In this document: positions 4,020-28,623 of the stretch, piece after piece
How the letters are laid out: every line of letters begins with the position of its first letter
Position numbering within the stretch: the stretch's first letter is position 1
Source of the DNA: a virus
DNA: 42,021 nucleotides
Direction: 5' to 3' (one strand)
Virus record (IMG/VR): IMGVR_UViG_3300044904_000043
Coordinates: 1 to 42,021 of that record
The notes under the pieces: generated by a model
Told to the model about the DNA's origin: nothing
Seen by the model: the letters and a program-made list of their open reading frames with translations, nothing else
The model's database searches: none
Made by a program: the position numbers and the translations under genes

Positions 4020-4025
4020 AAAGGG

Positions 4026-4089: not shown

Positions 4090-4107
4090 GTCCTCAGGAG
4101 GTTCACC

Positions 4108-4730: not shown

Positions 4731-4741
4731 CGCAAAAAGAG

Positions 4742-4773
4742 CCGTCCCGCTGGCGCGCGGTCCAGCGGGACGG
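4742..4773 (-). terminator. Strong intrinsic terminator between convergent blocks
   Basis: CCGTCCCGCTGG pairs perfectly with CCAGCGGGACGG (12 base pairs, eight-base loop). Read on the minus strand it is followed by CTCTTTTTG, a proper U-run, so it ends the long late transcript 41 bases after the last late gene. On the plus strand the run is absent but an A-run precedes it, so it may also stop the two-gene plus-strand message less efficiently. Confidence 0.88.
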
Positions 4774-4813
4774 TTGCGGCGCCCGGGGGAGGAAGCCCGG
4801 GGTGAACTGGGAA

Positions 4814-5152: not shown

Positions 5153-5165
5153 GGCCACCTCCAGT

Positions 5166-5528
5166 TTACGTTTGCGGCGTAGGCGGTATCGTCTGCCGCG
5201 TGATGAGGTACTGCCCCGCGTCGAGCGCGATCTTGAAAACCGCCACGAGCAATGACGCGCCGACGATGAGCAGAACGTGGCCGGAGATCACAGGCATCTT
5301 CCCGGCCATGACCTGATCAAGTCCAAGGATGGTCGCGTCGAAGTTCAGGATGTTCTTGAAGAACTTCGCATTTCGCTTCAGTTCCTCCGTGAGCAGCCAG
5401 CCCTTCATGCTGAACGGCGGGCTGATGACTACCGGAGTAACGGCGGCGGTCGCTACCTCTGCGATCTTCGCGAGCGCGACGGTTGCCGCCGCCGCTTCCG
5501 GCGTAATGGGCGGGGTTTGTGCGCTCAT
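5166..5528 (-). CDS. Single-pass membrane protein of the late block, unknown
   Basis: A 120-residue protein with a good GGGGAG site before its ATG. An Ala-rich N-terminus (AAAATVALAKIAEVATAAV) is followed by an amphipathic part (WLLTEELKRNAKFFKNILNF) and one clear membrane segment near the C-terminus (HVLLIVGASLLVAVFKIAL). Placed among the lysis-region genes it could be a holin-like or accessory membrane protein. No family was recognised. Confidence 0.65.
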   Translation of the reverse strand: MSAQTPPITPEAAAATVALAKIAEVATAAVTPVVISPPFSMKGWLLTEELKRNAKFFKNILNFDATILGLDQVMAGKMPVISGHVLLIVGASLLVAVFKIALDAGQYLITRQTIPPTPQT

Positions 5529-5531
5529 GAT

Positions 5532-5624
5532 CTACTCCCCACGGCGGCGGTAGTAGCCCCAGCCCCCGCCGCCGAAGAGCAGGACCAGGACGAGAATCAG
5601 GACGATGAGGGCGCCGTTGCTCAT
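5532..5624 (-). CDS. 30-residue DUF3309-like membrane peptide
   Basis: A tiny protein of 30 residues starting MSNGALIVLILVLVLLFGGG and ending WGYYRRRGE. The one hydrophobic helix followed by a Gly-rich turn and WGYYRR closely resembles the small DUF3309 family, whose role is unknown. Its ATG overlaps the stop of the preceding gene (ATGA at 5624-5621), which supports it despite the size. Possibly a small holin or antiholin-like helper. Confidence 0.65.
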   Translation of the reverse strand: MSNGALIVLILVLVLLFGGGGWGYYRRRGE

Positions 5625-6082
5625 TTGATGACGCCCTTCAGCTTGAGCGTGGCGATGGAAGACTCGACACCCTCGGTCTTGACCTGGGTCGTCGCCTGAG
5701 CCACATAGTCGGTCGCGCCCTGGGCCTGGAGGCTCTTCTGAAGCGTGGCGAACAGATCCTCGAGCGCCGAGCACGCCATCACGTAGTCTTTCGTGTGATC
5801 GGCCTCGTAGGCTGCGAGTCCTTCCTGCGCCAGGCTCACGAAGGTCGGGACTGCTGCGTGGTAGCCGGCGAAGATGGTGCTGAGGGGCGGCGGGATCAGA
5901 CCGCTCGCCAGCGCTGCCTGCATCAGTAGGTCTGCGCGCTCGCTGATCGCGATTGCCTGATTCACCCGACAGGTGGCAGTGTCCCACGTCGACGGACACG
6001 TGACCCCGCTGAGCGATGTGCACGAGATCGGAAGCGCAACGATGCACGCGGCCAGGACTGCGGTGAGGATGATGTTCTTCAT
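5621..6082 (-). CDS. Exported protein, probable lipoprotein (possible outer spanin)
   Basis: A 153-residue protein. The start MKNIILTAVLAACIVALPIS is a signal peptide, and the Cys after it (PISCTSLSG) can serve as a lipobox, though the -3 position is not classical. The ATG at 6082 has GGAGA upstream. The mature part is helical and has further Cys residues (VTCPSTWDTATCRVN, MACSALEDLF). It lies four genes from the endolysin and is coupled to the DUF3309-like peptide. Outer spanin is one idea; other lipoprotein roles are equally open. Confidence 0.65.
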   Translation of the reverse strand: MKNIILTAVLAACIVALPISCTSLSGVTCPSTWDTATCRVNQAIAISERADLLMQAALASGLIPPPLSTIFAGYHAAVPTFVSLAQEGLAAYEADHTKDYVMACSALEDLFATLQKSLQAQGATDYVAQATTQVKTEGVESSIATLKLKGVIK

Positions 6083-6113
6083 GGTGTCTCCTTTCGGTTC
6101 ACAGCTCATTTGC

Positions 6114-6266
6114 TCACGCGGCGCGTTCGTGATGCTGCCAGCACTTGCACGAGTAGGGCTTTTTGTAGATCGCCCAGTGAAGCGCGTAGAGCGGGTGGCT
6201 CAGAAACCACCACGCGTTCTTGGCGATGCGCTGCCGCAGCGAGAGTCCAGAAAAGTTTTCGCTCAT
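6114..6266 (-). CDS. Small late protein MSENFSGL, unknown
   Basis: A 50-residue protein with a strong GGAGGA site before its ATG. It contains an aromatic, weakly hydrophobic helix (NAWWFLSHPLYALHWAIYKK) and ends with a Cys/His cluster (YSCKCWQHHERAA) that could bind metal. No family was recognised. It lies between the papain-like peptidase and the exported protein in the lysis/accessory block. Confidence 0.6.
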   Translation of the reverse strand: MSENFSGLSLRQRIAKNAWWFLSHPLYALHWAIYKKPYSCKCWQHHERAA

Positions 6267-6285
6267 CGTTTCCTCCTTCTTCGGT

Positions 6286-7032
6286 TCACAGCGCGTTAAG
6301 TGCTTCACGGAGGCCCATCCAATCGAAGCCCTCCGGCGTCTTACCAGTGTTGTCGATCTGCTCCCGGGTGACCATCGCGATCGCCTCGTCGCAGTTCTTG
6401 TAAATGAACGGGATCGTCACCGGTTCGATAGCCCCCCACGTCACGGCCGGAACCATCCCATCGCGGAGGCCCATTCCTGGGATGTAGTGCCCCCCGACGA
6501 TCTCGCTTCCCGGCTCGACCGTCCACGGCTGCCCGCTCTCGAACTGTCGCTCGGCCGTGTCCGGCAACTCCACACCGATGCCAACCGCCCCAAAAAGCCA
6601 CATCGCCCGCAGTAGGTGGTCGATGTTGCCGGGGTCCAAGAAAAGGTAGGCCGCGATCTTGTGCCGGTTCCCCGCCGCGTCGATCAGCCCGGTTTTGAGG
6701 CGGTAGTCCATGACCGTGTGCATTTCGCAGCCGGTGTCGGTCGAGGGATCGCCTGGGACGTAGCCGGAAATCGCGCTGTAGTCTGCGAGCACACCCTCGT
6801 CGTTGAACGCGGTCGGGTTCATGCCCCCGGTCGTCCAGAGCATGTGCTCGTGTGCGGCGCCAGCGAGGGCACAATCGCTTTTCGTGTCGTTGCAGAACAT
6901 CGGCCACACGCCGATCGACAACTCGTGCCCAAACTCCTTCGGGTACGCAGGGAGCGCCCTCGGTAGGAACGTCTTGAACAGAAAGTCCGTGGGCTGTGGC
7001 GCTGCCGGCTGTTTGCCGAGCCCGAACCGCAT
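6286..7032 (-). CDS. Papain-like cysteine peptidase fold protein
   Basis: A 248-residue protein with the spacing of a papain-like (C1/C39-type) enzyme. A candidate nucleophile is Cys54 in KSDCALAGAAHEHML, at the start of a helix. His182 in IVGGHYIPGMG begins the core strand pair, and VTWGA (198-202) supplies the following Trp-Gly strand usual in the fold. The role could be cleavage of cell-wall peptides or of a virion or host protein; it could also be a catalytically modified relative. It has no signal peptide. AGGAG precedes the ATG. It lies between small late genes and the lysis genes. The fold call rests on motif order only. Confidence 0.65.
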   Translation of the reverse strand: MRFGLGKQPAAPQPTDFLFKTFLPRALPAYPKEFGHELSIGVWPMFCNDTKSDCALAGAAHEHMLWTTGGMNPTAFNDEGVLADYSAISGYVPGDPSTDTGCEMHTVMDYRLKTGLIDAAGNRHKIAAYLFLDPGNIDHLLRAMWLFGAVGIGVELPDTAERQFESGQPWTVEPGSEIVGGHYIPGMGLRDGMVPAVTWGAIEPVTIPFIYKNCDEAIAMVTREQIDNTGKTPEGFDWMGLREALNAL

Positions 7033-7046
7033 GTTAGTCTCCTATC

Positions 7047-7256
7047 CTATTCGTGGTGAACCCCGCTCGGTGGAACCACCGTGGGCTTCGGCCCGTACGC
7101 ACCAACGGCCCCGCGTACCTTCGAGATGTCCGTCCCGAGGCCTGAGAGCATCGTTTCGAGCTGACCGCGCAGCGCCTCAAGCTTGTCCCGCGTCTGCGCG
7201 CCGTCCTCCATGAGGTTGGCGATCCCCGTGATAACCTTCTCCTCGAACTCCGTCAT
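7047..7256 (-). CDS. Small late coiled-coil protein, unknown
   Basis: A 69-residue protein starting MTEFEEKVITGIANL, coupled to the gene before it by ATGA. Residues 1-45 form one amphipathic helix typical of a small coiled coil; the C-terminus is flexible and Pro-rich (YGPKPTVVPPSGVHHE). No family was recognised. It may be an accessory to the peptidase downstream. Confidence 0.6.
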   Translation of the reverse strand: MTEFEEKVITGIANLMEDGAQTRDKLEALRGQLETMLSGLGTDISKVRGAVGAYGPKPTVVPPSGVHHE

Positions 7257-7711
7257 GCTGTCCTCCCCTCCTTCGCCGCGAGCGCGGTTCTGTCGTCGTC
7301 GAACGCCCTCTGTGCCGGAGGCGTCCGTACGCCCTCGTAATACTCCTCGGCCTTGAACTGGCTGACGCCCTGCGTGATGAGCATCTCGTACCAAAGCAAG
7401 TCGCACGTGTCCTTCGGCAGAAGCGTCTTCACGCCGTTCACCAAGACGTACCCTCTGTAGCTCCGGTCATGGCCCATTCCGCACGGCCACGCGGGGCCGA
7501 ACCTCTCGATGCCTAGCACCTGGAGTGCGAGGCAAATCGAGGGGCCGTCCGCGTCGTCGAGTCCGTCGTCATCGCCAGGAAGGAACGTGATCCGGTCGCC
7601 GCCGACGCTCGCCGGTCGGATGTAGTCGAACGGCGCGAGCAGGCGCGCGTTTAGGCCATCCCAAATGCGGGCGTCAATCCAGTGAATCGGGAAGCTGCCA
7701 ACGTCGCTCAC
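7253..7711 (-). CDS. Late protein of unknown function (VSDVGSFPIHW)
   Basis: A 152-residue protein. The GTG at 7711 overlaps the stop of the preceding large gene (GTGA), which is the pattern throughout this genome; an ATG at 7762 would instead add 17 residues and overlap by 55 bases. The sequence is a well-mixed globular one with acidic FLPGDDDGLDDADGPS, which could bind calcium, and WPCGMGHDRSYRGYVLVNG. Not recognised. It sits in the fibre/lysis accessory block. Confidence 0.65.
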   Translation of the reverse strand: MSDVGSFPIHWIDARIWDGLNARLLAPFDYIRPASVGGDRITFLPGDDDGLDDADGPSICLALQVLGIERFGPAWPCGMGHDRSYRGYVLVNGVKTLLPKDTCDLLWYEMLITQGVSQFKAEEYYEGVRTPPAQRAFDDDRTALAAKEGRTA

Positions 7712-9336
7712 GGTCGCGCTCCAGCCGGAGGCGTGGGCCGAAGGATCGCGCCCGGTAGCCATGTCGGCGCGACGTGCTTGGCTTTCTTCGCGGCAGGCTT
7801 CGGATTCGGAACCGGGTTGATGACGACGGTCGCCACGGCGGGCGGGTACGCGACCGCCGCCGTGAAGATGTTTCGCGGAAGCGCGGCCCCTTGCTGATAC
7901 CACACGTAGGGTTGCCAGTCACCGGGCTTCGTCCAGTCCATCCCGTCATCGCCGTCCTGCGACCAAAATGTCCCGCAGACGCCCCACATGGGCGAGAACG
8001 CCGCGCCGCCTGGCTGAACAGCGATTCCGCACTGCGCGATTCCAACGGAGCCGACTGGCGCGGGAATCGCGATCGCGGTCGCGCTCCAGGTCTGCCCCTG
8101 GTCGGCGCTCTGCCATAGGTGGCACGCCAGCGTCACGGGCCACGGCCCATCCGTCGTGAGAAGCGTCTTGCCGTCACTCGCCAGCACGAGGTTCAACGGC
8201 CCCTGTATGCCATCGGCAACCGTTGACATCTTCACCGGAGGGAACGAAGGGTCAACCTCGAACTGGCCGCTCTGGGTGATTCGGAATCGCATCAACAGGT
8301 AGGGCCACGACCCCATCTTGTACAACGCACCAACGTAGGCCAGCTCGTGCCCGGCCAAGTCCACGATCCCCATGAGCGAGAAGTTGGCACTCTTCTGCGC
8401 GAGCACGGTATACCTGTAGAAGTTTGGCGAGAGCACCGTTGGCACTCCCTGCTCCGTCCGGAACGTAACCATTTCGAGCTGAACGTCGCGATCTGAGTCA
8501 CCCCCGAGAGGGCCAACGGGTCGCCCGGTGAATACCCCGTAGCTATGAAGCTCAGCCGGTTTGGTCTGGACTGGAATAATTTTATCGCCCGTCTCCCACG
8601 TCTCTGTGGTCTGACTGCTGCAATAGACCTGACGTGCCTGTGGTGTTGAACCGTCGGCTGCGAACCGCACAAGAACGAAGCACTCGCCGGGGTCTGTGGA
8701 CGACGATCCAACTGCCGGAGGCGTGAGCGACTCGTCAGGGTAGTGGCCGCTGTTGCACGAGATAACCGTTGATCCGTCCGGCTGCTGCTGAATCCACGGG
8801 ACTTGATACTGGTAGGAGAACGGCCACGGGAGGTAGGGCAGCCGCGTGAGCGTGATCGGAATTGCTTGCGTCGGCGTCGGGGTTGGCGTGGGCGTAGGCG
8901 TAGGCGTCGACACCGCGCAGGGTGTCGCGTTGATAACGTCCCCTGTGGCGCTGCACGGCAAGCCGATCGCTGGAGGCCACGCGAAGCATCCCCCGCTCGC
9001 GAGGTGGCAATACTGTTGCGAAGCGGGCGGGGTTGGCGTCGGCGTCGCAGAGCCTCCAGAACAAGAGGACGCCGGAATGATTGAGGCACCCGAAGGGCAC
9101 GAGGGAAATATCGCGCCCGCGCAGGTCGTGGTATCGGTGCACGGCCAGAGGAGTATTCCCTGACTGCAACAGACCGACCCGGCCGGGATAGGCGTGGGCG
9201 TCTGCGCTCTCGCCGGACGCGTGACGGCGCACGTCACCACCATCCCGGTGAGGACCCAACCCAGGACAGTGCCGATGCAAACTAGCAAGCAACCACGGCG
9301 GCTGCTGGTGGGCGGCGACTGCTTGTCCTCGTGCAT
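7708..9336 (-). CDS. Exported TPT-linker protein with Asp-box (sialidase-like) domain
   Basis: A 542-residue protein starting MHEDKQSPP. Residues 16-36 form a signal or anchor segment (CLLVCIGTVLGWVLTGMVV), followed by an RPARAQ sequence that would suit signal peptidase cleavage. Residues 50-142 are rich in paired Cys with short TPTPT runs, 144-156 is a pure TP linker, and 157-500 looks all-beta. SADQGQTW at about 410-417 is a canonical Asp-box, and SQDGDDGMDW is a degenerate second one, as in sialidase-type propellers that bind or cut glycans. The tail is Pro/Lys-rich. A surface glycan-binding protein is the best guess; catalytic residues were not identified. Confidence 0.72.
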   Translation of the reverse strand: MHEDKQSPPTSSRRGCLLVCIGTVLGWVLTGMVVTCAVTRPARAQTPTPIPAGSVCCSQGILLWPCTDTTTCAGAIFPSCPSGASIIPASSCSGGSATPTPTPPASQQYCHLASGGCFAWPPAIGLPCSATGDVINATPCAVSTPTPTPTPTPTPTQAIPITLTRLPYLPWPFSYQYQVPWIQQQPDGSTVISCNSGHYPDESLTPPAVGSSSTDPGECFVLVRFAADGSTPQARQVYCSSQTTETWETGDKIIPVQTKPAELHSYGVFTGRPVGPLGGDSDRDVQLEMVTFRTEQGVPTVLSPNFYRYTVLAQKSANFSLMGIVDLAGHELAYVGALYKMGSWPYLLMRFRITQSGQFEVDPSFPPVKMSTVADGIQGPLNLVLASDGKTLLTTDGPWPVTLACHLWQSADQGQTWSATAIAIPAPVGSVGIAQCGIAVQPGGAAFSPMWGVCGTFWSQDGDDGMDWTKPGDWQPYVWYQQGAALPRNIFTAAVAYPPAVATVVINPVPNPKPAAKKAKHVAPTWLPGAILRPTPPAGARP

Positions 9337-9530
9337 AACTCCCCCTTCTTCTTCGCCTGGCGCGCTCGCATCGCCTCGCTGCGCGCTTCCGACTCCACAG
9401 GGTTGTGCCCCGTGGCCCGCAACGCGCGGATCGCCGCGCTCGTGGAATCCGAGCACGGCCGCTCCGGGCCGCCGCACAGGTAGCGCCCATCACGGCCGAC
9501 AGCTCCGCAGCGGGGGCAACGGTCAATCAC
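9282..9530 (-). CDS. Small zinc-ribbon-like protein
   Basis: An 82-residue basic protein. The GTG at 9530 overlaps the lysin stop (GTGA). The opening DRCPRCGAVGRDGRYLCGG looks like half a zinc ribbon, with another Cys in ERPCSDS. The rest is Arg/Ala-rich and polar. The last 55 bases overlap the start of the exported Asp-box protein in another frame, so the extreme C-terminus may be poorly conserved. No family was recognised. Confidence 0.55.
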   Translation of the reverse strand: MIDRCPRCGAVGRDGRYLCGGPERPCSDSTSAAIRALRATGHNPVESEARSEAMRARQAKKKGELCTRTSSRRPPAAAVVAC

Positions 9531-10033
9531 GCGAGTCCCCACTTTTTCGCTACCGCGAGCACGCTCTCGCGGTACTGCGGGTTTGTTGACCAGCCGGGCT
9601 CATCTACCTCTCCATCTGGTGCCCACTTGGCGAGCAGGCCGTCGAGGAACCCCAGCGCGTCACCACGCTGGGCGGCCGCCGCCGCATCGGCGAACCACGG
9701 TTTGCTGCCAATTAGGCGGCCATAGTCTGCGAAGCATTCCGTCCAATCCGGGTACGAGCGCCAGTATGCTTCGATGGTGACCAACTCGCCGTCCTGCATT
9801 TCGACCGTCGGCATTGCGAGCCGCAACCCCTGCCAACTCTTCCCAGCCTTGATCCCAAATAGGTTATTGCCGCGGACCGCGAGGCGTGACGCGCCGTAGC
9901 GTGATTCAAGCGCAGCCTGCGGGGCTGCGATGCCAGGGACGATCGGAGCGCCGCCGGCTCGCGCAGCATCGGCGGCTGCGAGCGCGCGACGGATGAAGTC
10001 CTGTTTCTCTTCTGACGTTGGGTAGGCGCTCAT
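9527..10033 (-). CDS. Endolysin, glucosaminidase (FlgJ/GH73-like)
   Basis: A 168-residue single-domain lysin of the N-acetylglucosaminidase group. The signature is clear: PQAALESRYGASRLAVRGNN includes the catalytic Glu43, and NNLFGIKAGKSWQG (57-70) is the conserved substrate loop. It should cut the glycan chain of peptidoglycan. There is no signal peptide, so release depends on a holin. It overlaps the preceding membrane/coiled-coil gene by ATGA, a usual holin-lysin arrangement. Confidence 0.88.
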   Translation of the reverse strand: MSAYPTSEEKQDFIRRALAAADAARAGGAPIVPGIAAPQAALESRYGASRLAVRGNNLFGIKAGKSWQGLRLAMPTVEMQDGELVTIEAYWRSYPDWTECFADYGRLIGSKPWFADAAAAAQRGDALGFLDGLLAKWAPDGEVDEPGWSTNPQYRESVLAVAKKWGLA

Positions 10034-10488
10034 CGACCGCTGCCGTTCTTGCCATCACGCAAACGAAGTATCTCCACGGCGTGCGCATCAAGCCGAGCCC
10101 CCTGCGCGGCCTGGACGTTCTGAATGGCGACTACCCTCTCCAAAATCTCCTTTTGGCCGGCGACGATCTCGACGCGCATGTGCTCGATGGCGTACTGATT
10201 CGCCTGGCGCCCCCTCGACCGCTCGTCGCGCTCGTGATCCAGGTCTACGGCGACATCGGCTTGCGTGCGCTCGATGAGCTCTACGACGTTGTCGGACAAC
10301 TTGCACGAGGATGCGTGCGACGCGATCTTCGCATCGACACGTTCGTCAATCTCTCGCCGACGCTCGTCGCGGCTTCCGCGCCGCATCGACGCCGTCGTGC
10401 TCAGGCTTGACACGATCCCGCTGCCAAGACTCCCGATTGCAACCAAGACCGCCCAAGCCGCGTTGTCCACTCTTACCCCCTTAAACAT
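10030..10488 (-). CDS. Membrane coiled-coil protein, probable holin or spanin
   Basis: A 152-residue protein just before the endolysin and coupled to it. One hydrophobic segment near the N-terminus (AWAVLVAIGSLGSGIVSSL) is followed by a long charged helical domain rich in Arg/Glu (RRGSRDERRREIDERVDAKI and on). Position suggests the holin. The single membrane pass with a long coiled coil is equally like an inner spanin. Only experiment or structural comparison can separate them. Confidence 0.65.
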   Translation of the reverse strand: MFKGVRVDNAAWAVLVAIGSLGSGIVSSLSTTASMRRGSRDERRREIDERVDAKIASHASSCKLSDNVVELIERTQADVAVDLDHERDERSRGRQANQYAIEHMRVEIVAGQKEILERVVAIQNVQAAQGARLDAHAVEILRLRDGKNGSGR

Positions 10489-10497
10489 TGATGGTTC

Positions 10498-13419
10498 CTA
10501 GCTGTACTCGTGAATGATGATGATGCCGTCGGTGCCCCAACCGCCGTTCTTGCTCGTGCCAAAGGCAACGCCGCCGCCACCCCCGCCACCGTAACCGTTA
10601 CCGTTGTACCCAGCGTTCGCGTCCACCCGCCCCAGTCCGCCGCTACCGTATGGGTTCGATCCCCCATTTCCCCCGAAACCGAAAACAGAGTAAGAGGCGC
10701 ACGCTCCACCTCCCGGCGCTCCCGGCACAATCACGTCACCGCCAGAAGAACCGGACTGGAATACCCCCCCCACGCTGCACCCGCCGGTGGTTTGACCGAC
10801 CATTCCTGGACCACCGCCGCCGCCCTTTGCCGTGAGGGTACCGAACGTCGTGTCACCCCCTGCGGCCCCGCTTCCAGCGGCGGAGCCGCTCCCGCCCGCA
10901 CCCCCCCCACCAACCGAGTAGGTGTACGTCGAGCTCGGCGAGGTGATTCGCTTCATTACGTAGTCGCCGCTCGCACCTCCAGCTCCAGCGGCCTCTGTGC
11001 TGGTTCCCGACTTCGCTCCCCCGCCGCCCCCGCCGCCGCCAACCAGCTCGACGACGATGGAATGCGCACTCGCCTTCGTGGTATAGGTTTGCGCCGTGCC
11101 GGTCGTGTAGATCACCACGGCGAGGAGGGCTCCGCTCCCGCCACCCGATGGGGCGGCACTCGTCCAGGCCGAGCCGTTGCTCGTAAGGACGTTCCCGGTC
11201 GCCCCGGTAGAGGTCAGGCCTGTGCCGCCGCTGCCGACCACCAGGGTTGTGCTGAGCCCCGCCGCCGTGCCGCTCGTGCTCTGATTCCACGTCGGGATCG
11301 ACGTTGCTCCAGTGCCGCCGCTGGCAATGGGCACCGGGAACGTGCTCGGCGTCGGAGTTGGCGGAATCGTCTGAGGCGTAGGTGTAGGGACGGGCGGTAT
11401 CGGAGTCGCCGTTGGTGCGGGAGTTGGTACCCAGGTACCCCCGCCGATCCACGCTCCTATCTTGTCGAGCGCACTCTGCACGGTCCCCGGCGTTGGCGTT
11501 GTCCAGGCCCAGGGTGTCGGAGTTGCCGCATACGGAACACTCCCCGCGTAGGCTGTAGGCTGCGGCGTAGCCGTTGGGCACCCTCCACACCCACCGCCAG
11601 GAGTTGGGGTGGACGTTGCCGCTGGGGTTGGGGTTATCGTCGGCGTCGCGGTCGGGGGTGCCGGGGTCCACGTCGGGACGGGCGTGTACGCACCTGTCGG
11701 GGTCGGCGTAGGCGTCTGGGTGTTCGATGGCGTGACCACTGCAGTTGGCGTCGGCGTCACGTAAGCGCCGCCGGCGAAGTTCGCCTGGACTTGAGTGAAG
11801 GACGGAGACATCGTCCACGCGCAGGTCACGGACACGCTCCCCGCGCACTCGTCGTTGCTCCAGCCGGTGAAACGATAGCCAAGCCCTGGCTTGGCCGGGC
11901 TCGCCGTCAGCACCACTGAGGACGTCTTCGGTACGGAGTACACGCACGGGAAGGAACGACTCGTGCAGAGCTGCTGGATCGCGCCGTTCACCTGGACGTT
12001 GATGGAGCCAGCCCCCGAATTGAACGTGAGCGACAGGAACGGGATCAGCGGAGTTGGCGTCTTCGTCGGCGTGTTCGTCGGCGTGGCTGTTGCCGTTGGG
12101 GTCGGCGTGATCGTGGGAGTCGGCGGCACGGGCGTGATCGTAGGCGTCGGCGGGATAGGCGTGATCGTGGGGGTCGACGTGATGGTCGGCGTCTTGGTTG
12201 GGGTGTTCGTTGGGGTAGGCGTGTTCGTCGCAACACTCGTCGGGGCCGGGGTCGGCGTCGGGACAATGACGAAGTTACCAGTGACCGACACAACGCCTGA
12301 CGACATCGTAAACACGCAACTGGTCGAGGTGCTGCCGTTACACTCGCTGCCCGTCCAATTGACGAAACCGTACCCGCTGTACGGGTTCCCGTAGAGGGTG
12401 CAGGAAGACCCGAGAGCGACGCCCCAAGTCCCTGGCGTGCTGCCAGGCCACACCGAGCCAACGATGCTGCTATTCACGTACAGGTCCACCTGACCTGCCC
12501 CTCCGGAGATAGCCAAGGTCACCTGCGGCAGTGGCGTTGGTGTAGCCGTAGGCGTAGGCGTAGCGGTCGGAGTCGGAGCGTTCGCCGCGAAGTTCCCAGT
12601 AGACGACGTGCTCGTCGATGGCATGTAGACCGTGCAGGGACTGCTGTACCCGGCACACAGCCCGGTGAAGTTGACGAACGACCAGCCGGCATGACCCCAC
12701 GTCTGAATGCTCATGTACATGCCCGCGGGCACCCCGATACCGCACGTCGTCGTCGGGTAGTCGCAGTAGAGGATCGTCCCACCGCCCCCATCGAATGCAG
12801 CGACGGTGCCTTGGCCCGAGATGTTCAACGTCAACGTCGGCGACGTTGGCGTTGGGGTTGGCGTCCCGGGGACCGGCGTCGGAGTGATCGTCGGAGTTCG
12901 CGTCGCCGTAGGCGTTGGCGGAATCGGCGTCGGCGTGATCGTGGGTGTCTTCGTCGGGGTCGGCGGGATCGGCGTGTCTGTCGGAGTGGCCGTTGGCCCT
13001 GACACCGTAGGCGTGACCGTCGGGGGCACTGGTGTGATAGTCGGCGTAGCCGTCCTGGTCGGCGTTGGAGGAACTGGCGTCACGGTCGGCGTAGGAGTGG
13101 CGACGGCTGTCCACGTTGCGCCTGCGCTACAGAGGAGGGACCCCACCGTGAACGAGCACGTCGTCGAGGTGCCACTGCAATGTCCCGTCCAGCCGTTAAA
13201 CGTGTACCCAGAGTTCGGCGTCTCCGTGAGAGCGATCGAATCGCCGTTCTGGGTCGCATAGGTGCAGGGAGACGCAGCGGGAGTACAGTTCCCCTCATCG
13301 GTCCCATCCCAGTTCACATCGACGACGCCGCCAGCACCAACGGACACGATCGTGCTCGTGGAGGCATAGACCAGCACCGGAGCGAGCAGCATCAACGCGA
13401 AGGCGAGTAGCCGTTTCAT
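10498..13419 (-). CDS. Large tail fibre with signal peptide, TPT linkers and glycine-rich tip
   Basis: A 973-residue modular protein. Residues 1-20 (MKRLLAFALMLLAPVLVYAS) are a textbook Sec signal. Four divergent InlB-type beta repeats follow at about 22-105, 196-279, 299-385 and 462-549, each ending in a GYxFxxW-G-C-C-F/WTM-like pattern, separated by TPT-rich linkers. CGGCP lies at 611-615. Phage-fibre ASGGTGATS repeats are at about 699-745. The end, from about 765, is a glycine-rich domain (VVELVGGGGGGGG onward) of the sort that forms receptor-binding fibre tips. The gene follows the tail tip genes. ATG at 13419 (or the adjacent 13422) has GAGGGG upstream; an ATG at 13434 is also possible. 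A fibre with a secretion signal is odd. Confidence 0.82.
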   Translation of the reverse strand: MKRLLAFALMLLAPVLVYASTSTIVSVGAGGVVDVNWDGTDEGNCTPAASPCTYATQNGDSIALTETPNSGYTFNGWTGHCSGTSTTCSFTVGSLLCSAGATWTAVATPTPTVTPVPPTPTRTATPTITPVPPTVTPTVSGPTATPTDTPIPPTPTKTPTITPTPIPPTPTATRTPTITPTPVPGTPTPTPTSPTLTLNISGQGTVAAFDGGGGTILYCDYPTTTCGIGVPAGMYMSIQTWGHAGWSFVNFTGLCAGYSSPCTVYMPSTSTSSTGNFAANAPTPTATPTPTATPTPLPQVTLAISGGAGQVDLYVNSSIVGSVWPGSTPGTWGVALGSSCTLYGNPYSGYGFVNWTGSECNGSTSTSCVFTMSSGVVSVTGNFVIVPTPTPAPTSVATNTPTPTNTPTKTPTITSTPTITPIPPTPTITPVPPTPTITPTPTATATPTNTPTKTPTPLIPFLSLTFNSGAGSINVQVNGAIQQLCTSRSFPCVYSVPKTSSVVLTASPAKPGLGYRFTGWSNDECAGSVSVTCAWTMSPSFTQVQANFAGGAYVTPTPTAVVTPSNTQTPTPTPTGAYTPVPTWTPAPPTATPTITPTPAATSTPTPGGGCGGCPTATPQPTAYAGSVPYAATPTPWAWTTPTPGTVQSALDKIGAWIGGGTWVPTPAPTATPIPPVPTPTPQTIPPTPTPSTFPVPIASGGTGATSIPTWNQSTSGTAAGLSTTLVVGSGGTGLTSTGATGNVLTSNGSAWTSAAPSGGGSGALLAVVIYTTGTAQTYTTKASAHSIVVELVGGGGGGGGAKSGTSTEAAGAGGASGDYVMKRITSPSSTYTYSVGGGGAGGSGSAAGSGAAGGDTTFGTLTAKGGGGGPGMVGQTTGGCSVGGVFQSGSSGGDVIVPGAPGGGACASYSVFGFGGNGGSNPYGSGGLGRVDANAGYNGNGYGGGGGGGVAFGTSKNGGWGTDGIIIIHEYS

Positions 13420-13433
13420 CATTCCACCCCTCA

Positions 13434-15338
13434 TCAGGCGTCCGGGAGCTGCGTCACGGTGTTCACCACCGTCTGCGGGACGTAGGCGGCAGTGCAAAAG
13501 TCCGCAGCGTTCCACTCGATCAGCGCGAGGTCGAACGTGCCGTGCGAGTTGTCGCTTACCGTGTCAACAAGCATGGTCTTCGTGGACGTGAACAGCCTGC
13601 TCTTGAGCTGCACCAGCATCCCAGGGTGCAGCCTGATGCCGTGCTGCGGGACCGAACAGGTGGCGTGCCACGTCCGCCGGCCACGCGCAAGCCAGGTGCT
13701 GAGCAATCGGTACATCTGGTCGCCGCTTGGGACGGCAAGGACCGACATTCGGAGCTCGCGAGGCTGGTCGATGCCCTCCGTGACCGTCAACCATGGAACG
13801 GACACCTCAACCCGGTCCCACGTCACGGTGTCGAGGTAGTCGCCGATCGCCAGGTTCGGGACCTCCGGCGTGCTCCGGGTGCACTGCATGGTGCCTTGGG
13901 TCGCCAGGATGTCCGGGGCGACGCTCTCCTGGTCGGAGATGACCAGCGACCCCGCGGCCAGATGGTCGAGGCTGACGCGGTACAGGCCGTCCCAGTAGCC
14001 CCATCGACCATTGCAGACCTGGAGGATCGGGGTGACGGCTTGCTCAATCGGCTGGCGTTGCGTGATGGTCAACTCGAGGCGGAACATCTTCTCCGCGACC
14101 GCGGTCCGAAACCAGTGGTCGTAGATCTGACCTGCCCAGGAGCCGGAGAGGTAATAGGCTGAGCCGTCGGTATAGTTGTTCGTCGTTGAGTTGAGGTACC
14201 ACTTGACGCTCGCGTTCTGCGGCATCACCAGGTAGTACGTCGTCCCGGCCACGAATACCCGGCCCGCGCTCACCTGGGTGATGTCGTTGCCGTACCACGC
14301 CGTCAGGTAGTAGTCCCCCGGCCCGTTGATCGGGGCTGGCGGACATGGAAACATATTCGGGTCGGTGCTGCACGTCCAGCCACCGCTTGGGCCGGCAGGA
14401 AGAATGACCGGATACAGCGGGCTTGCTGTGCCCGATAGGCTCGCCCGGAGCTGGAACAGATCAGGCCAGCCCTTGCCGTCGGCGCCATGGTCAAGAACCT
14501 GGATCTTCACCTGAATGGCGAACGAGTCGTTGATGGCCTTGAACGACTGCGCCCTCGGGTAGTCTGTTCCTGCCGACGTATCGCTGAGGGTGTTACCGGA
14601 CACCTGAACCAACAACCTGTCAACGACCGCGTCGCATCCGAGCGCCGAGTCGTACCAGCTCTTTCCTGGGCTACTCTCCAGCGCGTCGACCATGGACTTC
14701 GACAACCCGCAGCCGAAGTCGGGCGAGCGCATGAGCAGCATGAGGGCCGCCATCGGGTTCTCGGTCCACACCGTCGGGAAGTCCGGGGCTGGGATAGTCG
14801 CGTTCGAGTAGTCCCATGCCAACAGGCCGCGTCCGGCAATCTCCACGCGCGGCATCCCGCCGTTGATCGGGGCCGTTGCGAGGTTCACCGTGATGCTCAC
14901 GTAGGCATAGCCTGGCCACGCGAGCTGCGCGATGGTCGAATTCGTAATGTTGCCGGGCGGCGTCTGCGTCAGGGTCCCGGTGCGGATCACCAGGCTGGTG
15001 ACCCAGGACGGAGGCGTCGGGTAGACCTGCGTTTGGTCGAGCCAGATGCTCTCGACTCCGTCAATCGGACCCTCACCGATCAACGCCACCATCTCGATCG
15101 AGGTGTCCCCACCTGCGATGTCAAAGTGGACCAGCTTGCACACAGCCCTAAACCTGCCGAGATTGACCGGGATGATCGTGCCCATCGCGGTGTCGGTAAC
15201 CTCGAGCGTCGCATCCCGCGTGCTGGCCTGGCCGGCCGACGGTGCTGCGGTCTGGGACGGCGGGACAGTGATCACCGGCGTCACCACGATCGGGGTCGCC
15301 GGACCAGACTGGAGGTGCCTGCGAGGGACGTTGCTCAT
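13434..15338 (-). CDS. Tail tip / central hub protein (J-like)
   Basis: A 634-residue structural protein. It begins with a flexible Pro/Thr-rich segment and then a beta-rich body with the ALIGEGPIDGVESIWLDQT stretch that is characteristic of central tail tip proteins of the lambda J/hub group. Later parts include GYWDGLYRVSLDHLAAG and a receptor-proximal half with many aromatic residues. It should close the tail tube and hold the fibre. Its ATG overlaps the previous stop (ATGA), and the fibre gene follows directly. It is shorter than lambda J, the fibre being a separate gene here. Confidence 0.82.
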   Translation of the reverse strand: MSNVPRRHLQSGPATPIVVTPVITVPPSQTAAPSAGQASTRDATLEVTDTAMGTIIPVNLGRFRAVCKLVHFDIAGGDTSIEMVALIGEGPIDGVESIWLDQTQVYPTPPSWVTSLVIRTGTLTQTPPGNITNSTIAQLAWPGYAYVSITVNLATAPINGGMPRVEIAGRGLLAWDYSNATIPAPDFPTVWTENPMAALMLLMRSPDFGCGLSKSMVDALESSPGKSWYDSALGCDAVVDRLLVQVSGNTLSDTSAGTDYPRAQSFKAINDSFAIQVKIQVLDHGADGKGWPDLFQLRASLSGTASPLYPVILPAGPSGGWTCSTDPNMFPCPPAPINGPGDYYLTAWYGNDITQVSAGRVFVAGTTYYLVMPQNASVKWYLNSTTNNYTDGSAYYLSGSWAGQIYDHWFRTAVAEKMFRLELTITQRQPIEQAVTPILQVCNGRWGYWDGLYRVSLDHLAAGSLVISDQESVAPDILATQGTMQCTRSTPEVPNLAIGDYLDTVTWDRVEVSVPWLTVTEGIDQPRELRMSVLAVPSGDQMYRLLSTWLARGRRTWHATCSVPQHGIRLHPGMLVQLKSRLFTSTKTMLVDTVSDNSHGTFDLALIEWNAADFCTAAYVPQTVVNTVTQLPDA

Positions 15339-15964
15339 GCGCCAACCTCTTCGCCCTGGAGCTGCAACGTGAACTGGACGCGCGCGTAGTCGGACACCGT
15401 GACCTCTCCTGGGTCCGCGATCAAATTTCCCAGGAGCAGACGGCAACCCATGAACGACACGGTGACCACCGCTCCGCTGGCCGGCGCGGTCGCGAACGTC
15501 ACCGCGAACCGGTTGTACTCGTCGTCGGTGACCGGCGCGACGGTCCAGTGCAGACCGTCTGTTCCGTACTGCGGGATCGGCACGTGGTTGACCATGACGA
15601 TGGGCAGAAGCTGGTCGAGCGCCAGGTTGCTCCCGCCGAACGGGAACGTGTACGTACCACCGTCACCTACCCCGGCCGGAGTGTCGTCCCACCAATCCCA
15701 TGGGCTCGGCGTGTAGAAGTAGCAGGGAACCGCGCCGCCCTGGAGTGACCTGAGTGCACTGAGAAACACGCTCATACTGAAGGCGTCCGTCGGGTTGCTG
15801 AGCGGGCGGTCGTAAGACAGGGTGACCGTCCAGAACGGTGACGTGCGTCCCATCCCGCGGACCTGGATCACCTTCCCGAGGTCGTCCTTGATGTAGGTGT
15901 TCTGCCACCCCTGCCGGTTCTTCGAGCCGTAGTCGGCGAGCGGGTAGTTCAGGAAGGTCGTCAT
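15335..15964 (-). CDS. Tail tip protein (DUF2460-like / distal assembly)
   Basis: A 209-residue protein starting MTTFLNYPLADYGSKNRQG. It lies between the L-like protein and the hub protein, coupled to both by ATGA overlaps, which is the place of minor tip proteins (M/K position or distal tail). It has a beta-rich composition and many aromatics (WDWWDD at about 98-103). The end (VTVSDYARVQFTLQLQGEEV) resembles the beta-sandwich close of distal tail proteins. The exact family is uncertain. Confidence 0.7.
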   Translation of the reverse strand: MTTFLNYPLADYGSKNRQGWQNTYIKDDLGKVIQVRGMGRTSPFWTVTLSYDRPLSNPTDAFSMSVFLSALRSLQGGAVPCYFYTPSPWDWWDDTPAGVGDGGTYTFPFGGSNLALDQLLPIVMVNHVPIPQYGTDGLHWTVAPVTDDEYNRFAVTFATAPASGAVVTVSFMGCRLLLGNLIADPGEVTVSDYARVQFTLQLQGEEVGA

Positions 15965-16710
15965 AATGCCCTCGCGAGGAGCCTGCGTACGGTGCTCCCG
16001 TTGCCGCCGACGCTGGGAGCAGTGATCGGCGGAACTGGGATAACCGCCGCCCCGATGTTTGATCCAGCGGTGCCAGCGAGTGTCGTGCCGTTCGCCACCT
16101 CGTAGGAGAAGACCGTGCCGATCTGAGGTACCGACGGCCAGCCCCCGTACCGCTGGAAGTTGCTCAGCGCCTGACACCGATCCATGGTCCTGTCGCAGAC
16201 GGTTTCGGAGCCAGCGTAGCCGCACCGTCTGCCCTTGAAGACGAGAACGCAGAGCTGGCTGACGTACCTGCCGACCATGCCGGCGGAGGACTGCCCTGGC
16301 ATCCGTGAGGTTAGCTGCAGGTCGGCGTATTCGGCCGTGTACTGGGCTTGATTGATCACCCCGCTAAAGATGAGCACCGGAGCGAGCTGGGCACCCGTCG
16401 TCGGGTCCCACATGACCTCGTAGACCAGCACGGCGACGTTCTGCAGGCCATTGCTGTCCGCGTCGACCGCGCTCACCTCGTTCGCACCGTTGCGCACGCG
16501 GATGGTCACCGTAGGCGTCGGGCCAACATTGACCGCGCCGACCGTCATCACACCTTCGCTGTACGTCTCGCCGGCCACCTGGATCGCCCCTGGGCCTTCG
16601 CACAGGAGTAGGGGCGTCGCAAACGCGATGCGCACGGCGTGGCGCGCCTGGTAGGCCGGCGCGGTGGCCGCCGCGACGACTCCAGTGGGGAGCGAGAGGT
16701 CGCGGCTCAT
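15961..16710 (-). CDS. Minor tail protein L-like, four-Cys cluster motif
   Basis: A 249-residue tail tip protein. Its C-terminal part carries the L-type signature CVLVFKGRRCGYAGSETVCD with DRC seven residues on, then NFQRYGGWPSVP. The four cysteines are 154, 163, 172 and 179. In lambda, L binds an iron-sulphur cluster through such cysteines while joining the tape measure complex to the hub. The N-terminal half is beta-rich. ATGA overlaps link it to the tape measure gene before and the tip gene after. Confidence 0.85.
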   Translation of the reverse strand: MSRDLSLPTGVVAAATAPAYQARHAVRIAFATPLLLCEGPGAIQVAGETYSEGVMTVGAVNVGPTPTVTIRVRNGANEVSAVDADSNGLQNVAVLVYEVMWDPTTGAQLAPVLIFSGVINQAQYTAEYADLQLTSRMPGQSSAGMVGRYVSQLCVLVFKGRRCGYAGSETVCDRTMDRCQALSNFQRYGGWPSVPQIGTVFSYEVANGTTLAGTAGSNIGAAVIPVPPITAPSVGGNGSTVRRLLARAL

Positions 16711-19700
16711 GCCCACCCCGCAGCCTTCGCCGAGGCCGCCGCGTTCGCCATGATCTGGGCGAAGGCGTTGGCCGAATCGACGAGGCTGTCACCTGCGGCC
16801 TGCGCGCCGTCCGAGAGGGCCTGGACGGCCTTGACCGCCGCGACGTGGGCGGCCTGGAGCGTATCCACCGCGGCACCCAGGCCGTCGAGACTCTTGGTCG
16901 TGGCGGACACCGACGCCGCCTCGGACCCGAACAGGCCGCTGTTGGGGTCGCCGGTCGGGTTTGGGCTGCCACCGACGACCGGTCCCTTCCCTCCGCCCCC
17001 GACTCCACCACCGCCCCCGCCGGTGCCCCCAGGAACTGTCGGCGGCGGGGTGAGGGCGGTCGTCTGCGGGATGCCGTTGAGGTCCTTCAGCGTGTTCGCG
17101 GCGCCCTGCGCGGCGCTCGTCAGCGTGGTGAGGGCGGTAACGAAGTCGTCCACTTCCTTCTGCAGCGCGGCATTCGCGGCGACGACCTGGCCTTCCCAAT
17201 CACCGATGAGCGCGTCCGAGGTGCTGAGCGCCCCGTGCAGGTCGGTGTTGATCAGGGTTGCGATATCGCCGATCGCCTTGTTAAGGCCGGACGTGTCCGT
17301 GGCGATGTACGTCGCCAGGCCCGAGATTGCGTTCTGCAGCTGCTGGTTGGCGCTCTGCACGCCGTTCGCGGCGTTGTTGAGCTGGCCCTGGGCCATGGTG
17401 TTCACGGCCTGCAGGAGCTGGTCGAGCCAGTCCGTCGTGTTGATCGGCTGGCCACCCGGGCCGGTGAGCGAGATCGCGGTCCCCATCCCGTGAAGCGTGT
17501 CGGCGAGGCTGGTGATCTCGCTGGTCAGCGTGCTGACCTGCTCGGGGGTGAGGCCGCCCTTCTGGAGCGCGCCGTAGTCCGACATGAGCTGCTGGACGAG
17601 GTAGTTCCCCTCGGCCTGCGGGCCGGCCGCCTGGGCGTCCTGGAGCTTCCAGTTCTGCATCTCCGAGGTGATGGACTGACCGATGCTCTGCTCGAGGCCG
17701 AGGATCGTGTTCAGTTCGGAGATGTTGTTCGCGTACTGCTGTTGGGTCAGCGAGCCGATCTGGTTGAGCGTGTTCACATCGCTGGCCGGGTCGAGGGCGT
17801 TGAGTCCCTGGCGGAGCTTGTCGACCTGGGTGACCGTGTCGGCGGTCTGCTGCTGCATCAGGGTCAACGTGCTCTCGCCGAACGTCGCCATGGTCTTGCC
17901 GACGCCGGTCGCGAGGTTGGTGCCGAGGTCGGTGAACGTCGTGTTCAACGTGTCGAACTGGGGAACGAGGCCCTGCAACGTCTGGGATAGGTTCATGAGG
18001 CTGCTGGCCCAGCTCTGGACCGCCTGGTCAGCGGCGCTGAGGTCCTCCGTGCTCGAGGTGGCCGGGTTCAGCCCCTGGAGCGCCGCGAACGCCGTCGTGA
18101 ACTGCGACGTGAGGTACGCCTGGAGGGCCCCCGTCCCCTTCGACGTCGCCGTGGTCGTGGCGATGCTGTCGAAGATGGACTGGAACGACTGGTCGATCTG
18201 CTTGCCGGTCGAGACGAGCGATGCCATGAGCTGCTGGTTGGCCGAGATCTGCTGGTTGATGAGCGAGACAGCCTGCGTCGCCTGGGACACCTGGTCGGTC
18301 GAGGACAGCGCCGAGAAGCTCTGGAGGATGTTGCCGATCGAGGTCTGCGTGGTCGCGAGACTCTCCGCCCACTTCTGCACCGCGCCCATCGACGCGTCGG
18401 AGACGAGCTGCGACAGCGGCTTCTGAAGCTCGGTTGTCTCCGTTCCAAAGTCGAGGAGCGCCTGGACGTATGCTTGGAGGCTCGCCATCGCCTTGCTGAA
18501 GTCGCTGGCGCTGATGACCGCGTCCATCTCGTTCTTCGCCCGGTCGGCGGACACGCCGAGCGCCTCCAGACCCGTCGTCAGCGCCGGGCTGAACGCCTGG
18601 AACACCGCCTGCGGCATCGTGTTGTTCAGGAACTGGTTGAAGGCCGTCGAGACGTCGCTGGTCGTTCCGCTGAGGGTCGCCGACCACGCGGGGTTTGCGA
18701 TGGTCTGCTGCTTCATCAGGACCAGCAATTCCTGCAGGCTGTCCTGGGTCGAGGATGCCTTCTCCGAGACCTGCTGGCTCATCTGGGTGAGGGCGGCGGT
18801 ATTCGCCACGCCACCAGTCGAGACGCCAACCGAGGAGAAGGTCCCGCCCTGGGTCGTGTCCTGCTGCCACTTCGTGGTCCAGTCGGCCGGCTGCGTGCTG
18901 CCGGCCGCGACGTTCATCGAGTAGCCCTTCGCGCCAGCCGTGCCGAAGTAGCCCATCGCGGCGCCGACGACAGCACCCACAATTGCGCCCACGTAGGAGT
19001 ACGGATCGGCCGGACCGCCCATCATCATGTAGCCCGATGCGGCCCCCGAGAGAGCACCACCGAGTGCCCCCTCGCCTTGGCTGCCCTTCGCCTGGGCGTT
19101 CGACGAGATTGCCCCGCCGGCCATGGACCCGGCGGCGCCCCAGTTGAAAGATGTTTGCCCACCTACGGGGTCCGTGTATTCCAGGCCGCCGGCTGCCAGG
19201 AGGCCATTCGAGCCCGTGATTCCTGTAATCTGGTGACCCTGGGAGTCCTTCCCGGTCAGCAGCCCGGTCAGCATGTCACCGAGTGACTTCGAGGCCGTCT
19301 TCGCCATCTGATCCGAGAACGACTTCCACGCATCGCTCAGGCCCTTGCCCTCGAAGATCGCAAGGAAACCATCCTGGAAGGCTTTTGTGGTTGACCGCTG
19401 GAGGTCGACGGCCCACTTGTTGAGCGGCGGTACGACCCCAGCGAGGCCGCCGAGGACGCCGGCCTCTATGCCCTCCTCGATCCCGTCGGGGACCATCGCG
19501 CCCATGGTCATGCCAAAGTTGGCGCCCGCGTAACTGGCAAACGAGTTGAACGAGGTGCTTGCGAGTTGGAGCCCCTGTCCGAGCCCAGGACCGGACCACT
19601 CGCCAATAAATCCGGTCGTGAAGTAGTCGGCGCTCTTCTCCCCGAGGTCAACCATGTCGTGCTCGGCGTCGCTCGGGAACGCTGAGGAGTACAGCGGAGA

Positions 19701-26090: not shown

Positions 26091-26762
26091 TCAGTAGCCC
26101 ACCCAAGTCGCCGTCACCGTGCCGCCCGAGATGGTCGTGGAGATTCGGGCCCTGACGGCGCCCAGCGAGGTCGTGATGTGGACGCAGTCGACCTTTGACG
26201 CTGCCGACCAGGGGACTGCCTGGACGACGGCCCAGGTCCCGGTATAGCCCGGGGTCCTGGCGGTCTCGATGCTCACGGCGCCCGCGCTGCAGCCGGCCGA
26301 CCACTCAATCCACACGGTGGAGTGGAAGATCGAGTTGCCGGTGTCGAAGACCAGGCCGCTGCCCGTGGTGGCTCCCGACTGGAGCGTCGCGCTGAGAGTC
26401 GTCAGGGAGGACAGCGCACTGGCGGCCGTCGGCGTCGGGGTGACCGTGGGCGTCGGCGTAATCGTCGGCGTCGGGGTGATTGTCGGCGTCCGGGTCGGCG
26501 TCTTGGTCGGGGTGATCGTCGGCGTGTTGGCCGGGGTCGGAGTCGTCGTCGGCGTCCTGTAGTACCAGGGCGTCGCCGTTGGCGTCGGCGTCTTGGTTGG
26601 TGTCTTCGTGACCGTCGGCGTGACAGTCGGCGTGATCGTCGCCGTGGCCGTGGGCGTGACTGTCGGCGTGTTCGTCGGGTTCACAGTCGGCGTCGCCGTC
26701 TGCGCAAGCACACTGCCGGCTGCGAGGATGGCCAGGACAGCCGCAAGGATCGTCTTCTTCAT
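26091..26762 (-). CDS. Exported TPT-linker protein with beta domain in the head block
   Basis: A 223-residue protein. The start [20 protein letters not shown] followed by Q is a model Sec signal peptide. Residues 22-115 are a near-pure threonine-proline linker (TPT repeats with interspersed V, I, K, N). Residues 118-223 form one beta domain ([40 protein letters not shown]) of the sort found in phage decoration proteins. GGAGG precedes the ATG. It lies between a probable decoration gene and the connector genes and behind a strong hairpin. A secreted protein in this place is unusual. Confidence 0.72.
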
Positions 26763-26817: not shown

Positions 26818-27231
26818 CTACGACTGCGCAGGCGCGTTCCGCGGGAAGGCGAGCACGGCGAAGGCCGCCAACGCGGCGCCCGTGCCGCCGTTGCCCGTGC
26901 AGCCGATCTGCAGGTACCGATGGAGGCCGACGTAGCCGATCGCGATGCACTTGTTGGCGTCGCCGGCGACCACGGCCTTGAAGCCGGTCAGGTCGCCGAG
27001 GATTTCGCCAGCCGGCACGTCGACGTAGTTGGTGTCGTCGTCGCATGCCTGGAGCGTCAGCGTCTGGCCGTCCGTGACGGAGCCGGCCTGGACGACCAGC
27101 ATCACCGCGTTGAAGCCGGAACGGTCGATCGAGACAGGCGTGACGTTGGCGCTGCCATTGAAGACCCCAGGCACGAATGCCGGGACCACCACCTGTTGGT
27201 GGAAGTTCTCAAACTCGGTGTACGGGTTCAT
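26818..27231 (-). CDS. Probable capsid decoration / minor head protein
   Basis: A 137-residue beta-rich protein starting MNPYTEFENFHQQVVVPAFV, with AAGGAGA before the ATG. It lies directly after the major capsid gene, between two strong hairpins. The middle (MLVVQAGSVTDGQTLTLQAC, DDDTNYVDVPAG) and the end (VGLHRYLQIGCTG) have the alternating pattern of a small beta-sandwich decoration protein. This place in the order often holds the decoration protein or head fibre. The call is based on position and composition. Confidence 0.7.
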   Translation of the reverse strand: MNPYTEFENFHQQVVVPAFVPGVFNGSANVTPVSIDRSGFNAVMLVVQAGSVTDGQTLTLQACDDDTNYVDVPAGEILGDLTGFKAVVAGDANKCIAIGYVGLHRYLQIGCTGNGGTGAALAAFAVLAFPRNAPAQS

Positions 27232-27300: not shown

Positions 27301-28623
27301 TCAGCCGAGCTTGCAGCGCACGAAAGCCTCGGACAACACCGGCATCCCGTCGCCCGAGACGTTGGCGATGAGGCCGTCCTGGTTCGCCTCGGCGTACAGC
27401 TCGACCAGGCGCTGCACCTGCATGTTCAGGCCGTCGAGGATGTAGTAGAACGAGAAGTCCCCGAGCATCCCGACGTAGTCGCCGGAGCTGAAGGTGTTGG
27501 GGACGTATTCCGAGACGAAGACCGGAATGCCGTCGATCTTGTCCGGCTGGTCCCCGTTCGCCGGCTGCCACATGTACTCGCCGGTGCCGGCGCCCCCGAT
27601 GTTGGTGCGCAGGAGGGTGATCTGCGTCATCGCGTCGCGGTGGAAGAGCCACTTCGCCCTCGGGCGGTACTGCATCTTCAGCGCGCCGCGGCAGGTGCGC
27701 AGGCCGTCGTAGGTGATCGCCGTCGCACTGCCGCAGACGAAGTCGCGCGAGGTCGGGATCCCCTCGTTGCTCGCCACGAACAGCCCGAGCGGCTGCTTGA
27801 CGCCGGTGCCCAGGAGGTATGCCTTCTCCTGGGTGATGCCGATCTTGTACCCCAGGCGCTGGTACACGTAGGTCAGGATGTCGAAGCCGGGCATGTTCAG
27901 CAGGGTCTTCGAGATCTTGAGCCGCTTGCGGAAGGGGTTGCAGACGAGCTCGCGCATGCCGAACTTGAGCGAGGTGTCCTCGGTGATCGACGTCGGCAGC
28001 TCGATCGACCACTCCATGTCGTCGATGTCCGTCTCTCTGGAAACCTGGCCGGCGCTGCCACCCTCCCAGGTCTCGATCTTCGTGGCGAGTTGGCGGATGT
28101 AGACGAGGTTGTCGACAGCCGCGAGGATCCCCTGGATGACCGACATCGGCGGCCGAAGGTAGCCGCCGCGGGTCAGGTCGGTGACGTTGAGGGCGGCCTT
28201 GTACTCCGGCGAGAGCAGCGTTCCGGCGTCGGGCCCCAAGCGCCACCACGCGACGAACGCCCGGCCCTGGATGTCGTCCAGAACCTTGCGGTCGGGGCTG
28301 CCCTTGGGCACGGCATCGTAGCCGCCGCCTGCGAACGCCGCGAGCACCCGCTTCTCGACCGAAGCGGCCGTCAGCCCCCCGGGTTCCGAAACGCCGTGGT
28401 TGAATGCCGCGGGTTGGTCGAGTGCGCGCTCGATGACGTCCTGGCGGTCCAGGTTGTCGGCGGTGGCCTTGAGGCCCTCCGCATCCTTCATCATCGCCTC
28501 GTACTTGGCGAACTCCTCGGCGGTCTGGGCGCGCTTGTCCTTCACCGCGGGCTCGAGGAAGTCACGTCGGGCTTGGGCGACCAGCTCGGCGCGACGCTGC
28601 AACAGATCCATCTTGCGGTTCAT
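27301..28623 (-). CDS. Major capsid protein, HK97 fold
   Basis: A 440-residue protein of the HK97-type phage_capsid family. Residues 1-100 are a charged helical prodomain (MDLLQRRAELVAQARRDFLE and on) expected to act as the internal scaffold and be removed. The mature shell protein would begin near 100-115. Family-typical segments include ISKTLLNMPGFDILTYVYQR, GTGVKQPLGLFV and GIPVFVSEYVPN. The ATG at 28623 is one base after the protease stop, with GGAGACC upstream. Cleavage is probably by the S49-type protease encoded next to it. Confidence 0.94.
   Translation of the reverse strand: MNRKMDLLQRRAELVAQARRDFLEPAVKDKRAQTAEEFAKYEAMMKDAEGLKATADNLDRQDVIERALDQPAAFNHGVSEPGGLTAASVEKRVLAAFAGGGYDAVPKGSPDRKVLDDIQGRAFVAWWRLGPDAGTLLSPEYKAALNVTDLTRGGYLRPPMSVIQGILAAVDNLVYIRQLATKIETWEGGSAGQVSRETDIDDMEWSIELPTSITEDTSLKFGMRELVCNPFRKRLKISKTLLNMPGFDILTYVYQRLGYKIGITQEKAYLLGTGVKQPLGLFVASNEGIPTSRDFVCGSATAITYDGLRTCRGALKMQYRPRAKWLFHRDAMTQITLLRTNIGGAGTGEYMWQPANGDQPDKIDGIPVFVSEYVPNTFSSGDYVGMLGDFSFYYILDGLNMQVQRLVELYAEANQDGLIANVSGDGMPVLSEAFVRCKLG

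Follow-up and report, generated by a model that had tools for sequence, protein, structure and literature searches.

The gene at positions 10498 to 13419 of this viral DNA (IMG/VR record IMGVR_UViG_3300044904_000043, 42,021 nucleotides, the whole of which we call the window) raises a simple question: why would a protein built like a tail fibre begin with a Sec signal peptide? Textbook assembly of tailed phages is cytoplasmic, and the window carries the gene set of such a phage, here an uncultivated one: terminase, portal, capsid, tape measure and endolysin. The first-pass annotation had pointed out this puzzle of an export signal on a virion-like protein, and we judge both the anatomy that it described and the puzzle itself to be right. 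The features discussed are collected in Table 1.

Table 1. Features of the window that bear on the fibre-like gene, with positions counted from the first letter of the window.
Feature	Position	Strand	Basis
Signal, InlB-repeat/TPT and fibre-tip protein, 973 aa	13419 to 10498	minus	ORF, domain matches
Sec signal peptide, residues 1-19, MKRLLAFALMLLAPVLVYA (predicted)	13363..13419	minus	heuristic score
InlB-like repeat 1, residues 20-107, Cys 45, 52, 81, 88, 97	13099..13362	minus	
InlB-like repeat 2, residues 195-281, Cys 219, 226, 255, 262	12577..12837	minus	
InlB-like repeat 3, residues 297-381, Cys 340, 360, 368	12277..12531	minus	
InlB-like repeat 4, residues 460-549, Cys 485, 492, 525, 533	11773..12042	minus	
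GGTGATS / NQST fibre-type segment, residues 698-767	11119..11328	minus	phrog_863
Glycine-rich tip like the Pam3 fibre tip, residues 768-973	10501..11118	minus	PF21722, PDB 7ypx/7yfw
Ribosome-binding site GAGGGG	13427..13432	minus	
Tail hub (J-like), immediately upstream of the fibre-like gene	13434..15446	minus	
Glucosaminidase-type endolysin, two genes downstream of the fibre-like gene	9527..10033	minus	
Third signal/TPT protein, located after the endolysin, 542 aa, Cys-rich with 19 Cys	7708..9336	minus	
Second Sec-signal/TPT protein, 223 aa, post-cement head slot	26091..26762	minus	
Cement-like gene, between the capsid gene and the second signal protein	26818..27231	minus	
Major capsid protein, without signal	27301..28623	minus	phrog_10, 5.6e-54

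Anatomy of the fibre-like protein

We observed that the two halves of the protein match very different families. Within residues 20-549, four stretches separated by TPT linkers match PF18998 (Flg_new_2, InlB-type) in Pfam with an E-value of 2.7e-19, which bears out the Cys-containing InlB-like repeats on TPT linkers described earlier for the first ~550 residues. Most of these repeats have four Cys, and in repeat 3 both Cys of the first pair are missing together. The fibre-like build described for the C-terminal half is also borne out. Besides its GGTG motifs, residues 700-973 resemble phrog_863 (tail) in PHROGs with E 2.5e-28, residues 773-970 resemble PF21722 (Gly_rich_2) in Pfam with E 1.7e-11, and residues 789-972 resemble the solved Pam3 tail fibre (PDB 7ypx/7yfw) with E about 3e-5, some of these scores being inflated by glycine-rich composition.

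Searches of Pfam and PHROGs recognised no N-terminal virion-docking domain in this protein, and no muralytic or spanin domain. Peptide patterns searched in IMG/VR gave no relative of the whole protein, nor did INPHARED with the low-complexity filter on. The pattern of InlB repeat plus TPT gave 0 loci in IMG/VR and, among the matches listed for the TPT-GGTG pattern, no locus combines a signal with both TPT linkers and a GGTG segment.

Translation start and signal peptide

As for the start of translation, the stop of the hub gene overlaps an in-frame ATG at 13434 (TGATG), which is followed by GAGGGG and then by ATGATG (13422/13419). The start of the fibre-like gene either overlaps the hub stop or lies within 14 nt of it, in agreement with the position after the hub that had been noted. 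Whichever of the three starts is used (13434, 13422 or 13419), the signal is included, and the next 120 codons contain no in-frame start with a ribosome-binding site. A translation start downstream of the signal, named in the first-pass annotation as a possible refutation, was rejected on this ground.

To score signals we used a heuristic that combines n-region charge with h-region hydrophobicity and an AxA cleavage motif, and not SignalP. By this heuristic, we confirm that the fibre-like ORF begins with a classic Sec signal, with a predicted cut after residue 19, directly before ST; among random sequences of the same composition, 0.08% pass at h >= 2.8. The description as a textbook signal peptide is in line with this score. 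The heuristic is passed by 5 of the 16 major late-region proteins tested, four of them strongly (h >= 2.8): the fibre-like protein, the products of 26762-26091 and 9336-7708, and the lipoprotein-like ORF 6082-5621. The core genes identified in the window, namely terminase, portal, protease, capsid, adaptor, neck, tape measure and hub, all score negative.

Neighbouring genes in the window

The hub ends shortly after its Phage-tail_3 region, with no apparent receptor-binding extension, and no other fibre gene is present between the hub and the lysis genes. Relatives of the hub were found neither in 27 records nor in INPHARED.

The second signal protein (26762-26091) combines a signal and a TPT linker with a C-terminal domain, and the cement-like gene that precedes it has relatives occupying the same place in many phages. 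A search for relatives of the second protein itself gave none, and the AlphaFold model of its C-terminal domain (pLDDT 39) is useless. The same is seen with the third protein, for which no relatives were found and the AlphaFold model has a pLDDT of 33. Matches to phrog_15511 were discarded as meaningless, their coverage being mainly TPT linker.

Other genes of the window include a PEGA-domain lipoprotein-like ORF on the opposite, plus strand (4168-4563; PF08308, 4.6e-8) and a 153-aa lipoprotein-like ORF with a strong signal and a ribosome site (5621-6082). Two homing-endonuclease-like genes (1062-2024 and 21332-21868; phrog_314), one of them within the tail region, have a common N-terminal motif. 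The scan for an integrase, which covered part of the ORFs in the window, found none.

Related proteins with and without a signal

A comparison of relatives with and without the signal had been proposed as a check. Since no relative of the whole fibre-like protein was found, the comparison rests on other proteins, in two families, one of the head slot and one of the tail, whose domain functions are those suggested by position.

For the head, capsid relatives were gathered from IMG/VR and GTDB genomes, and a profile was built solely from three post-cement-slot proteins that lack a signal (cut-off E <= 0.001). This profile finds 21 members. Sixteen start at the domain itself (MADATYQPKVY..QGG and similar), and five have a hydrophobic N-terminus instead, either a signal or a signal anchor. 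The N-termini of L280, L287 and L259 resemble cleavable signals, and those of L284 and L292 resemble signal anchors. The signal-less profile reaches the signal-bearing members with E-values of 2.5e-15 (L287), 6e-14 (L280), 8e-10 (L292) and 1e-8 (L259), and the clearest of these cases retain the KVY.EQGG-type start. L292 lies 2.8 kb from its capsid gene, with the other members at 0.5-0.7 kb. The second signal protein of the window has no detectable similarity to this family and shares with it position only, behind a homologous cement gene.

For the tail, a tail-type N-terminal domain is found at the very start of the protein in 57 loci, internally in 21, cut in 1 and behind a signal in 1. The signal-bearing locus (L337) is on the same contig as L166, and a phage record in INPHARED has a 69% identical tail-type domain without a signal. 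Retention of the domain after the gain of a signal suggests that it still works in the virion. The presence of surface-part proteins both with and without a signal in related phages suggests that some phages export outer virion parts ahead of their joining the particle.

Signal genes in other phages and in a cellular genome

Signal genes also occur in runs. In G004 (46 kb), a capsid-like gene (phrog_371) is followed downstream by an unbroken series of about nine ORFs that are signal-bearing or signal-like, some scoring weakly and a few being read by eye. Up to four signal genes, three of them strong, follow the capsid gene in G001; single or paired ones follow it in L161 and L235, and in L192 and L210 they follow tail genes. 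In the loci examined, the signals sit in decoration or fibre slots. The Cys content of signal ORFs has a median of 1.63%, against 0.80% (p 0.04), a modest enrichment by a weak test.

Two loci were noted on their own account. In L424 (IMGVR_UViG_3300010391_000098, 3628-15131), roughly nine consecutive signal-bearing or signal-like ORFs lie downstream of a capsid gene, several of them Cys-rich or TPT-rich. L417 (IMGVR_UViG_3300009285_001594, 13004-17639) has signal ORFs after the capsid gene, two of which have the same C-terminal motif, YGP.W.K...SWW.E.K.RN; it may mark an attachment domain that they share.

A cellular genome also encodes Gly_rich_2 proteins bearing a Sec signal (L425 and L443, from one Pseudomonadota genome), so that a glycine-rich tip alone is no proof of a virion role.

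Comparison with known systems

Filamentous phages have Sec-exported virion proteins, the coat proteins pIII and pVIII, and assemble in the membrane without lysis, whereas the phage described here is a tailed one and has an endolysin. The second signal protein occupies the same post-capsid slot as phage head decoration proteins. The likeness to last-added parts of the T4/P22/lambda type is that of peripheral parts added late; to our knowledge, the known head decoration proteins and last-added parts have no signal. With bacterial exported InlB-type repeat proteins (PF18998), the fibre-like protein has in common the signal, the Cys-bearing repeats and the Thr/Pro linkers, but it is encoded by a phage, in the late structural region, and has a fibre tip.

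The fibres with a glycine-rich tip (Pam3 gp24, Salmonella phage S16 gp38; PF21722 / phrog_863) have the same tip, by sequence match to Pam3, as well as GGTG motifs and the post-hub position. They have a docking helix where the protein of the window has a signal, InlB repeats and long TPT linkers, and a phage chaperone takes part in the folding of Pam3 gp24 (PMC9608196). SAR endolysins and spanins are Sec-dependent late proteins of phages (e.g. PMC3765740), but they are lysis proteins and not fibre-like, and the fibre-like protein has a cleavable-type signal. A Sec-dependent lysis protein of this sort was rejected, given the lack of a muralytic or spanin domain in the Pfam and PHROGs searches. 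According to a DGR survey, its phage variable proteins have no signals (PMC6199706), and in the open-licence papers that we searched we came upon no description of a tailed-phage fibre bearing a Sec signal.

Proposed export with late attachment, and other explanations

We favour, tentatively and at slightly less than an even chance, an explanation in which the peripheral parts of the virion leave the cytoplasm by export, are oxidised outside it and attach to particles at lysis or later. The fibre-like gene would encode either the receptor-binding fibre of the phage or an accessory to it, and export would take place late in infection. Residues 1-19 would be cut off by signal peptidase, the Cys pairs of the repeats would oxidise outside the cytoplasm, and the mature protein would meet finished particles in the periplasm or in the lysate and attach last. 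The protein at 26762-26091 would be handled likewise, as a head decoration. As a wider rule, a minority of tailed phages would export peripheral, last-added virion parts and not core ones.

Fibres and decoration proteins are classically the last to be added and can join finished particles (T4, P22, lambda), and for this reason export before attachment is possible for peripheral parts and not for core parts, a possibility that fits the distribution of signals observed. The Cys pairs of the repeats, the paired loss in repeat 3 and the Cys enrichment of signal ORFs fit with folding outside the cytoplasm. A fibre tip in the fibre slot, behind a hub with no apparent receptor-binding extension, argues for export and late attachment, as do the second and third signal/TPT proteins of the same phage. 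Against it, the N-terminus is the usual docking end of fibres, and that of the fibre-like protein has no known docking domain. The chaperone of the Pam3 fibre, which has the same type of tip, is cytoplasmic (PMC9608196); an exported fibre could not use it, which also counts against this explanation.

The idea that the protein is added to virions or to the cell surface after export had been raised in the first-pass annotation and fits best, although sequence does not decide between these two destinations. A serious rival, which we consider rather unlikely, is that the infected cell secretes the protein or displays it on its surface, and that this protein, made of fibre and surface-protein modules, never becomes part of the particle; it may then protect against superinfection by blocking receptors, bind debris or aid attachment. 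With its signal, its InlB repeats and its TPT linkers, the protein is built like a bacterial surface protein, it has no known docking domain, a cellular genome contains proteins with a signal and a glycine-rich tip, and the PEGA lipoprotein-like ORF and another lipoprotein-like ORF are present in the same window. However, the fibre-like gene fills the only apparent fibre slot, the signals of other phages are on virion-slot families whose bare members start directly at the conserved domain, and lysogenic conversion is unsupported because no integrase is among the part of the ORFs scanned. It is improbable that the hydrophobic N-terminus is kept, with the protein tethered to the membrane and joining tails at the inner membrane, or with the segment acting as a virion docking peptide. 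A retained N-terminus would stand in for the missing docking domain, and two head-slot relatives (L284 and L292) resemble signal anchors and not cleavable signals, but the signals of the fibre-like and second proteins are short, with good cleavage motifs (VYA, VLA), and Cys-bearing repeats suit an oxidising compartment.

Chance fusion, in which the phage took its 5' end from a host gene for an exported repeat protein and the signal has no role, agrees with an N-terminal half typical of bacterial exported proteins. We consider it very improbable: the signal is intact and well scored, this one genome has three signal/TPT proteins, and signals recur in unrelated phages. The earlier idea of a one-off fusion between a bacterial protein and a fibre is insufficient, given two more Sec-signal/TPT proteins here and, in other phage lineages, signals on virion-slot proteins, some of them from families whose other members have none. 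An artefact of wrong start, strand or assembly, for which one may cite that the strand was absent from the original observation and that no relative of the whole protein was found, is hardly credible. There is one open frame in a coherent late operon, with a ribosome site at its start and none at downstream starts, and the start-site evidence already largely refutes it.

Significance

Export with late attachment may be part of a two-compartment plan, used by a minority of tailed phages. Cores would be built in the cytoplasm, and decorations and fibres would pass through Sec, be oxidised, perhaps be glycosylated on their TPT linkers, and be added at lysis, with signals gained or lost by swapping a few N-terminal residues of ordinary virion proteins. 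Taken jointly, these proposals are quite possible, but we lean against them as a whole. Should outer parts indeed be exported, phages would have access to binding parts that are disulfide-bonded and possibly glycosylated, and receptor binding could act before lysis. Free virions may also be decorated by the proteins of neighbouring infected cells. Lastly, export of outer parts would give a sequence rule, with the signal on peripheral parts only, that is testable in cultured phages.
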